Assembly (NCBI GenBank): GCA_019118245.1
Contig: DWZJ01000051.1
Coordinates: 1 to 37,439 of the forward strand
Source: Candidatus Oscillibacter excrementigallinarum
Lineage (GTDB): Bacteria > Bacillota > Clostridia > Oscillospirales > Oscillospiraceae
Direction: 5' to 3'
DNA length: 37,439 nucleotides
A program made the translations under genes and the position numbers. This document shows positions 33,962 to 37,111 of this stretch, in pieces; positions within the stretch are counted from its first letter, which is position 1, and each line of letters starts with the position of its first letter. The notes under the pieces are model-generated. The model made no database searches. It had not been told where the DNA came from and saw only the letters and a program-made list of their open reading frames with translations.

Positions 33962-33991
33962 AAAAAAGAGGCGCTTGCGCGCCTCTTTTTT
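33962..33991. terminator. Terminator beyond the displaced nadE tail
   Basis: AAAAAAGAGGCGC (33962-33974) and GCGCCTCTTTTTT (33979-33991) form a perfect 13-bp stem. The stop codon of the displaced nadE tail (33990-33992) overlaps it, so this was probably the native nadE terminator. Confidence 0.9.
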
Positions 33992-34061
33992 ATTCCAGCG
34001 TCTCCAGTTCTGCCATCCACAATGCGGCGCTTGCGTCCGACGGCATCCGCCGCGTCGTCGC
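33990..34061 (-). pseudogene. Displaced second copy of the nadE 3' end
   Basis: Read on the minus strand, this encodes [20 protein letters not shown] and TAA. The working nadE gene ends [19 protein letters not shown] and TGA, 197 bp away. The DNA differs at several places, mostly at third codon positions, with one Ile-to-Met change. The upstream part of the gene is absent, so it is a remnant of about 70 bp rather than a gene. Confidence 0.85.
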
Positions 34062-34186
34062 AAAGTCCGCTTTCCTCCGCTTCCGCCTTCGGCAAAAGCT
34101 CCGGACGCTCCCTTGCTCCTCCTTTCCCCACAAAATCTTCGATTTTGCGGGGACCCCATTGAGGCGACTGGCTCATTCGTTTCAAA
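34062..34186. repeat. Hairpin-rich spacer between the two nadE tails
   Basis: About 125 bases with GCC/GGC around TTC, and a 12-bp stem CCCCACAAAATC/GATTTTGCGGGG (one A-C mismatch, loop TTC) at about 34127-34153, then ACCCCATTGAGG. The analogous spacer at rnhA has GCCCCGC/GCGGGGC followed by CCCTCAAGGG, a loosely similar module. No coding content. Confidence 0.55.
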
Positions 34187-36112
34187 TCACTCCAGCGTCT
34201 CCAATTCCGCTATCCACAATGCGGCGCTTGCGTCCGACGGCATCCGCCAGTCGCCGCGGGGGGAGAGGGCCACGGTGCCCACCTTGGGGCCGTCCGGCAG
34301 GCAGCTGCGCTTGAACTGCTGGGAGAAGAACCGCCGGTAGAAGGTCTTGAGCCACTTCAAAATCACGTCCCGGCTGTAGGTCTTGCCCAGGGCGTACACC
34401 GCCAGGCGGTAGATCTTCCGTGGCGGGAAGCCCCAGCGGAGCAGGTAGTACAGGAAGAAGTCGTGGAGCTCATAGGGCCCCACCAGGTCCTCCGTCCGCT
34501 GGCTGATCTCCCCCTGGACGGCGGGCAGCAGCTCCGGGGATACGGGGGTGTCCAGAATGTCCTCCAGCACGTCGTGGAGGGCCTGGTCCTTCTTTGCGTT
34601 GTCCCGGGCCAGATAGGCCACCAGATGCCGCACCAAGGTCTTGGGAATAGAGGCGTTGACGGCGTAGTTGCTCATGTGGTCACCGTTGTAGGTGCACCAG
34701 CCCAGGGCCAGCTCGCTGAGGTCGCCGGTGCCGATCACCAGGCCGCCGGTCTGGTTGGCGATGTCCATCAGCACCTGGGTCCGCTCCCGGGCCTGACCGT
34801 TTTCAAAGGTGACGTCGTGGTTCTCCATGCTCTGGCCGATGTCGGCGAAGTGGCGGCGCACCGCCTGGGAGATGTCCACCACCTTCAGCGTGGCGCCCAT
34901 CCGCTCCGCCAGCAGCTCCGCGTTGGAGCGGGTCCGGGCGGTGGTGCCGAAGCAGGGCATGGTGACGGCGATGATGTCGCTGGCGGGCCGGTTCAGCATC
35001 CCCATGGCCAGGGCCGTGATCAGCAGGGCCAGGGTGGAGTCCAGACCGCCGGAGAGGCCCACCACAGCCGTCTTGGCACCGGTGTGCTCCAGGCGCTTTT
35101 TCAGGCCCAGGGAGGCGATCCGCAGGATCTCCTCACACCGCTCCGCCCGGCCGGCATCATCCTCCGGCACGAAGGGGGAGGGGGAGACGTACCGGGTCAG
35201 CCGGGTCTCCTCCACCGGCAGGGAGAAGGAGACCCGCCAGATCTCCGGCGGCTCCTTGCCGAAGGTGAAGGTATTGGTCCTGCGGCGGTCGTAGGCCAGC
35301 CGGTCCACGTCGATCTCACTGACCGTGAGGCCAGTGGCGAACCGGCGCTCCGCCAGCAGGGTGCCGTTTTCCGCAATCAGGTTGTGCCCGGTAAAGACCA
35401 CATCTGTGGTGGACTCTCCTTCGCCGGCGTCTGCGTACACATAGCCGCACATCAGCCGGGCAGACTGGCCTGTCACCAGGGCACGGCGGTAGTCCGCCTT
35501 GCCCACCAGCTCGTTGGAGGCGGAGAGGTTCAAGATCACGGTGGCACCCTTCCGGGCCAGTTCCACGGAGGGCGGCGCCGGGGCCCACAGATCCTCGCAG
35601 ATCTCCACGCCGACGACGAGGTTGGGCATGGTGTCGCAGGCAAAAGTCTGGTTCGTACAGAGGCTCACATGCTGTCCGCACAGCTCGATCCCATGCTCCA
35701 CGCCGCTGCCGGAGGCGAACCACCGCTGCTCATAGAACTCCCCGTAATTGGGCAGATAGGTCTTGGGGACCAGCCCCAAGATTTCTCCTTTTTGTATAAC
35801 AGCTGCGCAGTTATACAATTTGTTGTCCCATTTGTCCCACACGGGCAGTCCCAGGGCCGTCACGATGTCCAAATTCCGAGTGGCCTCCAGGACCGTTTGA
35901 AGGCCCTCCTCGGCTCCCCGCAGCAGGGTGTCCTGCAAAAAGAGATCGCCGCAGGTATAGCCGGTGAGGCACAGCTCAGGGAGCGCCAGGATCTTGACGC
36001 CCTGCTTGTCTGCCTCCCGCATCAGCGTAAAGATCTGCTCCGCATTGTAGCGGCAGTCCGCCACCCGGATCTTGGGGGTGCCGGCGGCCACGGAGATAAA
36101 ACCGTCTCTCAT
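34187..36112 (-). CDS. nadE: Glutamine-dependent NAD+ synthetase
   Basis: A 641-residue two-domain enzyme that makes NAD+ from deamido-NAD+ using glutamine nitrogen. The N-terminal nitrilase-type glutaminase domain has the Glu47 ([11 protein letters not shown]), Lys117 ([15 protein letters not shown]) and Cys172 ([10 protein letters not shown]) triad. The synthetase domain has the ATP pyrophosphatase loop SGGLDS at 354-359 and the C-terminal [13 protein letters not shown] segment. The length is normal for the long form. The ATG at 36112 follows AAGGAGGCG. Its last ~70 bp occur a second time 197 bp downstream next to what looks like the native terminator, so the present 3' end may have been acquired. 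Confidence 0.96.
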
Positions 36113-36460
36113 CTTGAAACGCCTCCTTGATGGAAAAACCTGTATGCCTTATTCTACACCCCGCCGCCCGGATTTACAAGAAAGGCGCTTGCTTTTTTAC
36201 AGGCGGTTGGCATCCTTGCCGAAAACACACAAAGGACCGCCGATGGCGGTCCTTTGTGCTGTGTGTGTTTTTAGGAGGGAGAAAACGCATCGGGTTTGGG
36301 AGGACCCTTTGCTTGATTATAAGATACCCGATATTTTTTTCTAAATTATGTTTTTCTTATGAACAGATTGTAAATGATTCCTTCTGTTCAGGTAAATTTT
36401 TAGAAAAAGTTGTCTCATTCTGGAAATTTACCAAGCTCCCTCCGTTTTCAGGGCTTAAAC
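36113..36460. other. Spacer between nadE and the displaced rnhA tail
   Basis: No gene. Besides the terminator at 36223-36269 it is AT-rich from about 36310. It holds a TATAAT on the minus strand (about 36316-36321) without a clear -35, the palindromic motif TGAACAG (36360-36366)/CTGTTCA (36384-36390), and a distant inverted repeat GGTAAATTT (36391-36399)/AAATTTACC (36424-36432). Confidence 0.45.
36223..36269. terminator. Terminator downstream of rnhA
   Basis: AAAGGACCGCC (36231-36241) and GGCGGTCCTTT (36245-36255) form a perfect 11-bp stem with loop GAT; outside it AACACAC and GTGTGTT can extend the stem past a bulge. It separates the rnhA region from nadE on the minus strand. Confidence 0.85.
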
Positions 36461-36523
36461 TTCTGGCTCTCTGCCACCGAAAGCTCGTCGCAGCGGTTGT
36501 TATACGCATTCTCCGCATGGTTC
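36448..36523 (-). pseudogene. Displaced second copy of the rnhA 3' end
   Basis: On the minus strand this reads [20 protein letters not shown], then FKP and a TGA stop. The working rnhA ends [20 protein letters not shown], then YK and TAA, 223 bp away. About 58 bases are nearly identical, with changes that still give a plausible C-terminus. The rest of the gene is missing. Confidence 0.85.
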
Positions 36524-36673
36524 CCCATCCGGTTTTGCCGGACGGGGGCCCCTCATTTGATTTTGCTCGGCGGAACTGAATTCCACCTCCCCAAGGTTTT
36601 GCCTGTGGCAAAACGCTTGTACGGCGCAGGCGCCGCCCCGCTTTGCGGGGCCCCTCAAGGGCCACGCTTCCGC
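36524..36673. repeat. Hairpin-rich spacer between the two rnhA tails
   Basis: About 150 bases containing TCCGG/CCGGA around TTTTG, GTTTTGCC/GGCAAAAC (loop TGT), GGCGC/GCGCC and GCCCCGC/GCGGGGC (loop TTT) followed by CCCTCAAGGG. No coding content. The pattern of short triloop hairpins resembles the spacer between the nadE tails. Confidence 0.55.
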
Positions 36674-37111
36674 TTATTTGTATTTCTGGCTCTCTGCCAC
36701 CGCCAGCTCGTCGCAGCGGTTGTTATACGCATTCTCTGCATGGCCCTTGACCCAGTGGTAGCGGAGGGAGTGGACCTCCGTCAGGGCCAGCAGGCGGTCC
36801 CACAGGTCCGGGTTCAGAGCGGGCTTCTTGTCGGCCTTTTTCCATCCCCGGGCCTTCCAGCCCTTGGCCCAGCCTTTTTCCAGGCCGTCGATGACGTATT
36901 TGGAATCGGACCACAGGTCCACGATGCAGGGCTCCTTCAAAAGGGACAGGGCCTCGATCACGGCGGTGAGTTCCATCCGGTTGTTGGTGGTGTTGGCCTC
37001 GCCGCCGGAGAGCTCCCGCTTGTGGGGGCCGTACATCAAAATGGCGCCCCAGCCGCCGGGTCCGGGGTTGCCGGAGCAGGCGCCGTCGGTGTATATGGTG
37101 ACTGTTTTCAT
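36674..37111 (-). CDS. rnhA: Ribonuclease HI
   Basis: A 145-residue RNase HI, which cuts the RNA strand of RNA-DNA hybrids. The four acidic residues are present: Asp9 ([12 protein letters not shown]), Glu47 ([12 protein letters not shown]), Asp69 (LWSDSKYV) and Asp134 (NNRCDELA), with His124 in WVKGHAEN. The basic handle region [17 protein letters not shown] is also there. The ATG at 37111 has an AAAGGAG site. The same frame stays open upstream to a GTG at 37318 with its own ribosome binding site and a hydrophobic N-terminus, so a longer membrane-bound form is possible. A diverged copy of the last ~58 bp lies downstream. Confidence 0.95.

Follow-up and report, generated by a model that had tools for sequence, protein, structure and literature searches.

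Tail-duplicating non-coding units with junction-complementary guides in conserved genes of Oscillospiraceae

Two adjacent genes of Candidatus Oscillibacter excrementigallinarum, nadE and rnhA, each carry a second copy of their own 3' end behind a short structured spacer. Both genes lie in the stretch of DNA analyzed here, 37,439 nucleotides (nt) long (contig DWZJ01000051.1 of assembly GCA_019118245.1; hereafter the window). The two duplications belong to a real class of tiny non-coding units that sit in gene ends and supply the host gene with a tail. These units recur with one anatomy in conserved genes, with a precise junction, a guide centered on that junction, covarying structured elements, tails that differ mostly by synonymous changes and, at some loci, tandem arrays. 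Such a unit is probably a site-specific, guide-directed homing cassette of about 210 base pairs (bp). A word search of open-access PubMed Central found no earlier report of such units in bacteria.

In the notation used here, read in gene direction, G is the gene body, T' the carried tail, T the downstream tail, and J1 and J2 the borders of the unit. The order in both window genes is G, T' with its stop codon, a short leader, a structured element and the second copy T, which in nadE ends in its own stop codon. The nadE duplication (33994-34051 and 34191-34248) covers 58 nt at 95% identity with a spacer of 139 nt. The rnhA duplication, by ungapped extension, covers 36461-36545 and 36684-36768, and the true limit of homology between its repeats lies at about 36520 and 36743. 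Both duplications exceed chance. An earlier sequence-only reading of this DNA had described the succession of tail, spacer and tail in the two genes, and that observation is confirmed; its interpretation is partly supported. It had proposed one loose module shared by both spacers, a stem followed by letters resembling TTGAGG or TCAAGGG. A hairpin, GGGGNCCCC, is indeed common to the nadE and rnhA spacers. The letters that follow run into the target-specific guide of each unit (34163-34172 and 36655-36664), and in place of a single module there are two different structural families, E1 in the nadE spacer and E2 in the rnhA spacer.

The recurrence of the units was examined in 437 kb of the same genome (G000; L and C numbers below denote fetched loci and contigs), made up of the window and 20 stretches of 20 kb. 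Repeats in direct orientation, 28 nt or longer and at least 78% identical, with a spacer of 40-600 nt, were found 13 times in this sample, which was taken from larger contigs already examined and is not a random draw. Three of the repeats lie within repetitive proteins, and the other ten are gene-end units in nadE, rnhA, smc, pheT, uppP, prfB, trmL, mutS, a gene that we take from its peptide to be hfq (L282:9905), and the 5' end of lepA. A broader set consisted of 205 distinct fetched element copies from G000 and its relatives, which are not all of the model hits. In 98 of these copies (33 of 127 E1, 65 of 78 E2), the sequence 3' of the element is duplicated upstream of it, and the downstream tail copy begins at the element's 3' end. 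Five of 101 E1 hits were left out, four as repeats of places already included and one as a short contig end, and the 127 E1 copies exclude some two dozen other copies from G000 that lack the duplication. When E1 flanks were mismatched as a control, the maximum score in 288 pairings was 15.5; true duplications scored up to 108. Median unit length from J1 to J2 is 208 bp for E1 (n=29) and 213 bp for E2 (n=51). The duplication usually ends at the stop codon, and J1 lies 34-88 nt before the end of that codon (in the 55 units whose guide reaches 9 nt), apart from one outlier at 127 nt that is actually a 5'-end case. G000 holds 18 units (4 E1 and 14 E2), and more are found in relatives. The proposal of a class of tiny non-coding elements whose cargo is matched to each target gene is thus borne out: the window pair is neither the only case nor without common structure.

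The guide had not been foreseen. In many units the leader between the stop codon and the element contains a stretch of 9-19 nt that is complementary to the part of the gene spanning the junction. Perfect complementarity over 9 nt or more was present in 59/98 units, compared with 145 of 9,400 pairings with the junctions of other genes, and same-sense matches of this length, used as a control, were present in 2/98. Within the ten units of the scan the guide reaches 10 nt or more in eight, with 8 nt in pheT and 7 nt in hfq. A wider comparison set the leader against all of the sequence starting 160 nt upstream of the junction; 55/97 units had a match of 9 nt or more, and 54 of the 55 matches were centered within 5 nt of the junction. 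Reversed leaders gave 5/97 matches, three of them at least 58 nt from the junction. The guide also goes with the duplication: guides of at least 10 nt occur in none of 92 undoubled E1 copies vs 18/33 with a duplication, and in 2/11 undoubled E2 copies vs 27/64. Guide and target were shown to change together across genomes in nadE, mutS, a response regulator and rpoD. The nadE target variants GGCGACT|GGC, GGCGATT|GG and GGCGACT|TGC (the last with its aligned junction one base further on) are each accompanied by a fitting guide. Of 39 target differences that fall in paired windows, 19 are matched by the guide in both genomes and 20 in one; genome pairs in this count lack independence, and the count by its design includes one fit or more. 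The guide presumably works by pairing with its target, and because it is present, the class is more than a footprint of past events.

The two tails of a unit differ mostly in ways that leave the protein unchanged. Among differing codons between T' and T, 207 are synonymous and 91 non-synonymous, where a random expectation would be 23% synonymous; with six misassigned 5' units removed, the counts are 203 and 58. In units that are not near-identical, the tails mismatch at about 7% of positions overall and about 16% of third positions. Since the differences are mostly synonymous, both tails have a coding history. Either one of the two originated in another lineage, or units are gained and lost over time, with each tail in use during some periods. 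The downstream tail had earlier been described as a relict, a description that does not suit most units, in which it shows no decay; a few relict tails do decay, such as that of eno in L116. Among 46 units in same-gene clusters, one tail is nearer to another genome's tail than to its partner in six (smc L031, rpoD L085, leuS L315, mutS L319, the regulator L347 and prfB L365). A mosaic pattern, identical near the junction and different near the stop codon, was seen in four cases and did not hold, as mismatch is even along the tail and slightly lower in the first 6 nt.

Some features of these tails would also follow from recombination. If diverged gene ends recombined, or if DNA taken up by the cell underwent illegitimate recombination, with intergenic repeats serving as hot spots, the differences would be mostly synonymous, as expected of alleles from other lineages, and the six clustered units with one tail nearer to another genome would fit this account. 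However, it predicts neither a guide centered on the junction, nor a fixed element end at that junction, nor the lack of guides in undoubled E1 copies. Recombination is therefore disfavored as an improbable explanation, including in the form given by the sequence-only reading, in which intergenic repeats mediate the exchange of diverged gene ends.

The elements themselves are structured. In alignments of real copies, both-side base-pair changes were found in 24 of 26 E1 pairs and 22 of 25 E2 pairs, and in each family covariation as high as that observed was reached in 0 of 500 shuffles; the alignments were fitted to the models, a bias that favors the structure. G.U pairs outnumber A.C pairs by 177 to 10 in E1 and by 80 to 3 in E2, and so the structure forms on the modeled strand, as RNA or as single-stranded DNA. 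No Rfam match at gathering level was found for either element, and a relaxed threshold gave weak, chance-level hits only, in two E1 regions. The E1 model R1 has 38 hits in G000 (E-values up to 1), and E1 occurs in at least 26 of 40 genomes, including at least 22 of 25 from the same genus (E-values up to 0.01); the same-genus genomes with no E1 among the matches listed are G003, G009 and G018. E2 has at least 17 hits in G000 and hits in at least 15 of the 40 genomes (E-values up to 1e-6); in a class-wide draw with stricter filters, it was found in 2 of 245 genomes, G000 and a member of another genus of the same family. E1 is present in the complete isolate genomes CCNA10 (AP018533) and CE91-St43 (AP025582) and in the isolate Pseudoflavonifractor phocaeensis An858, and it is thus no artefact of metagenome assembly. 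No clear bias of orientation relative to replication was seen in two complete genomes, judged by eye without a known origin.

Structured repeats 3' of genes are common, and the elements could be ordinary regulatory hairpins of 3' untranslated regions or REP-like repeats that duplicated gene ends by chance as they spread. Excerpts of one study describe REPs as palindromes of 20-40 bp and include CGTC-tagged REPs without a dedicated transposase (PMC3733652). This reading is disfavored and highly improbable, given the size of REPs, the correlation of unit size, junction, tail and guide, and the guide matches centered on the junction.

The host genes are conserved housekeeping genes. By best NCBIfam match of partial proteins, many of them under the curated whole-protein cut-off, 3'-end hosts include smc, spoVAC, yifB, ilvC, pgk, alaS, eno, fusA, uvrA, rpoD and mutS, and further hosts are leuS, uppP, guaB, trmL, prfB, pheT, era, aspS, rsmH, a PhoB-like regulator, lepA and rnhA. 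nadE is a host in several genomes and for both families (E2 in An858, L195), and in six relatives (L184, L185, L186, L189, L194 and L196) nadE directly joins the next gene. Tandem arrays occur with E2, as three copies 205 nt apart (L354), two at 205 nt (L355) and two at 212 or 224 nt (L370, L369), and with E1 at a spacing of 196 nt (L060). Insertion in gene 3' ends, as first proposed, describes most units; others lie on the strand opposite to the gene, at its 5' end, in lepA (twice), prfC (twice), mutL, fabK and a racemase, and lepA of G000 has one unit at each end (L282, L350). An automatic rule placed 88 of the 98 units at 3' ends, a class that includes at least six true 5' ends on the other strand (L061, L282 lepA, L311, L318, L360 and L366).

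The 5'-end units bear on whether the guide and element might be a self-splicing RNA that excises together with the carried tail, with both tails in use and under selection. A guide that pairs across both exon edges does resemble a splice-site guide, and both tails look constrained. Splicing is nevertheless very improbable, because the 5'-end units stand on the wrong strand, where it cannot help the gene, and four of these 5' tails still differ mostly by synonymous changes when read in the frame of the gene, with 18 synonymous and 3 non-synonymous codons. There is no Rfam ribozyme match, and efficient splicing would make the carried tail needless.

Under the homing-cassette reading, a unit would consist of a copy of the host gene end with its stop codon, a guide of 9-19 nt and a structured element of family E1 or E2, of which one strand is read, whether as RNA or as single-stranded DNA. 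Pairing of the guide with the conserved target would span the future junction. The cassette would enter there, with the element's 3' end joined to the downstream part of the gene, so that the carried tail would complete the gene and the displaced tail would be left downstream. The junction 5' of the carried tail would again be an intact target, and thus further copies could enter and form arrays. Cutting and joining would be done by a protein supplied in trans. Chances are about even for a fuller proposal, in which small structured RNAs or single-stranded DNAs of two unrelated classes serve as homing cassettes that are programmable and specific to a gene. Each would read its target through a guide of about 12 nt and replace the end of an essential gene by its own recoded copy, with the help of an enzyme yet to be found. 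That would make them a new bacterial system for guide-directed DNA insertion. Should the guide indeed direct insertion, they would offer a further natural route for bringing short DNA into a chosen site under nucleic-acid guidance, minimal and with the host gene still working, and would be nature's parallel to the engineered 'recoded rescue' homing drives, within a common family of gut bacteria. Mechanism aside, the units account for numerous cases in Oscillospiraceae of a duplicated gene end or an odd annotation.

Several results weigh against this reading. Most E1 copies (94 of 127) have neither duplication nor guide, and in G000 a duplication accompanies only 4 of the 38 R1 hits. An exact guide of 9 nt is missing from 39 of the 98 units. 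In 40 of the 46 clustered units the tails are mutually nearest or tied with a copy in the same array and do not point to a distant donor; for most of the 40, whose tails are each other's nearest, the donor, if any, is close. We infer, rather than observe, the movement of units between genomes. A comparison aimed at showing that the downstream tail is native did not bear this out: terminator-like signals follow T' in 46/80 units and T in 29/80, and the hairpins of the element may set them off. Finally, no enzyme has been found: for each of the reverse transcriptase, Y1/RAYT, TnpB, IS110 and IscB families, most of the carriers searched have no member, and the working molecule may therefore be either RNA or single-stranded DNA.

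The families rejected as partners were searched by profile. RAYT was found in 6 of 40 genomes (5 of 25 in the same genus, where at least 22 carry E1), the weak Y1 hits being REP_Tyr_transpos proteins, and no confident E1 was found near RAYT genes at four loci (best 12.8 bits). TnpB (PF07282) was over the cut-off in 5 of 24 genomes and absent from G000, IS110 (PF02371) was present in 6 of 24, with one copy in G000, and absent from most element-bearing genomes searched, and IscB (PF14239) was present in 1 of 40. One genome (G003) has both TnpB and IS110, yet no E1 or E2 was among the matches listed for it. A single-copy RAYT gene lies directly 3' of the same topoisomerase-like ATPase gene (664 and 663 amino acids) in L171 (G000 C100:2578-3069) and L173 (G015).

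The reverse transcriptase profile PF00078 is absent from G000 and from 12 of 16 same-genus genomes searched (present in 4), most of the 12 carrying E1. This result bears on target-primed reverse transcription, in which an RNA of gene end, guide and element would be copied into the gene and a long target-site duplication would yield the second tail. The precise 3' junction and variable 5' side of the units suit such a route, as do the structured, strand-specific element and a guide whose pairing around the site resembles the target choice of group II introns. The missing enzyme argues against it, as does the clustering of duplication ends at the stop codon, unexpected from a plain staggered nick, though selection could produce it. 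Reverse transcription is an unlikely origin for the units.

How do the units compare with known mobile elements? Phages and integrative elements that lodge in the 3' end of a tRNA or protein gene make good that end with a copy of their own, and the end they displace remains at the far border. The units resemble them in both respects. Such phages and integrative elements extend over kilobases, encode an integrase and, for each integrase, use one fixed attachment core. The units, by contrast, form two families, each in many unrelated genes and with a guide that varies by gene, and no integrase lies within their ~210 bp, the test having covered the element itself. OMEGA RNAs (of IscB and TnpB) and IS110 bridge RNAs are structured RNAs that are associated with mobile elements and whose guide can be programmed, and in IscB RNAs the guide is 5' of the scaffold. 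The units share the structured element and guide, with the guide 5' of the element as in IscB RNAs, whereas IscB, TnpB and IS110 domains are absent from most element-bearing genomes searched. We know of no tail replacement in OMEGA or bridge-RNA systems. In group I and group II introns and in IStrons, an internal guide pairs with both sides of the insertion point, and conserved genes are preferred. Pairing across the insertion point and conserved host genes are common to the units and these introns. The units differ in having no Rfam intron match and no reverse transcriptase in G000, and in restoring the gene by a carried tail rather than by splicing.

The fungal mitochondrial mORFs of Glomus and Allomyces, as excerpts of their description have it, place an endonuclease gene between inserted and native C-terminal ends (PMC3630166). 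They share with the units the order of gene, inserted end, mobile element and native end, and the use of several conserved genes as hosts (PMC3630166). One mORF tail is foreign to the gene, with differences that are largely synonymous (PMC3630166); the units' tail differences are also mostly synonymous, and a foreign origin of one tail is indicated for at most 6 of the 46 clustered units. Unlike mORFs, described there with a homing endonuclease and a length of ~0.5-1 kb, the units are ~210 bp, non-coding, equipped with a guide and bacterial (PMC3630166). The ~210 bp are taken up by tail, guide and element and thus leave no room for a homing endonuclease gene. The IS200/IS605 family has a strand-specific hairpin and, in excerpts of its description, a four-base guide 5' of the hairpin that pairs with the cleavage site (PMC8266576). 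A strand-specific hairpin element with a guide on its 5' side is thus shared by the units, IS200/IS605 and REP/RAYT systems (PMC8266576; PMC3733652). The unit guide has 9-19 nt rather than 4 and a tail is carried, and RAYT genes occur in 6 of 40 genomes vs E1 in at least 26 and E2 in at least 15 of them. The units fit no family tested; they are like tail-replacing homing elements, without a protein of their own or an identified partner.

Table 1. Features of the two window units (window positions), and inverted E1 pairs elsewhere in the genome (contig:positions).
Feature	Position	Strand	Basis or remark
Hairpin resembling a terminator, with runs of A and of T, following the second nadE tail	33962..33991	.	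read from sequence alone
Downstream copy of nadE tail, with own stop codon	33990..34051	-	
Unit 1 structured element, family E1	34052..34156	-	model R1; error-free model R3 104.8 bits
Unit 1 guide (GCCAGTCGCC), in leader from stop codon to element	34163..34172	-	position read from sequence
nadE (NAD+ synthase), host gene of unit 1	34187..36112	-	open reading frame; relatives of protein
Unit 1 working tail T' of nadE, through stop codon; J1 between 34248 and 34249	34187..34248	-	
nadE target site across J1 (GGCGACT|GGC), complementary to unit 1 guide	34246..34255	-	
Downstream copy of rnhA tail	36461..36521	-	
Unit 2 structured element, family E2	36522..36636	-	model R2 99.8 bits; one of R2's nine building sequences
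Unit 2 guide (TGGCCCTTGA)	36655..36664	-	position read from sequence
rnhA (ribonuclease HI), host gene of unit 2	36674..37111	-	NCBIfam NF001236 212.7 bits, cut-off 160
Unit 2 working tail T' of rnhA; J1 about 36743/36744	36674..36743	-	
rnhA target site across J1 (TCAAGGGCCA), complementary to unit 2 guide	36741..36750	-	
Inverted E1 pairs, G000	C93:16804-17634 (L003); C82:8415-9301 (L012); C42:18-817 (L007); C26:700-1448 (L017)		

Elements were also seen in other settings. One undoubled E1 copy, in L134 (G005 C35), has its downstream flank repeated 517 nt upstream and is possibly a longer unit; in a search for larger, possibly autonomous units it was the sole far copy among undoubled copies. 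A genome from another family of the order (G030) has at least 42 E2 and at least 10 E1 hits, and the copies fetched from it (L325, L338, L380-L383) have no tail duplication. Short unannotated faecal records named 'Bacteriophage sp.' (MT838705, MT839034 and MT839899) match parts of E1 or E2 at 74-86%, and a viral_contigs scan with rnhA gave no match. In G000, inverted E1 pairs bound non-coding stretches of ~0.75-0.9 kb with the outer flank CAATGGGGGG and no tail duplication (Table 1), and because several stand at contig ends, this repeat breaks the assembly. A reverse-orientation E1 adjoins, again without duplication, the stop codon of a gene that we take to be rpsO, at the same place in L046 (G000), L062 (G008) and L070 (G010). 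An ordinary riboswitch, a T-box leader (RF00230), lies at L273:15629-15870. Three E1 copies surround the tmRNA gene (RF00023) of G000, one of them ending beside its 5' end (L030, 1300-2120; C17:30248-30950).

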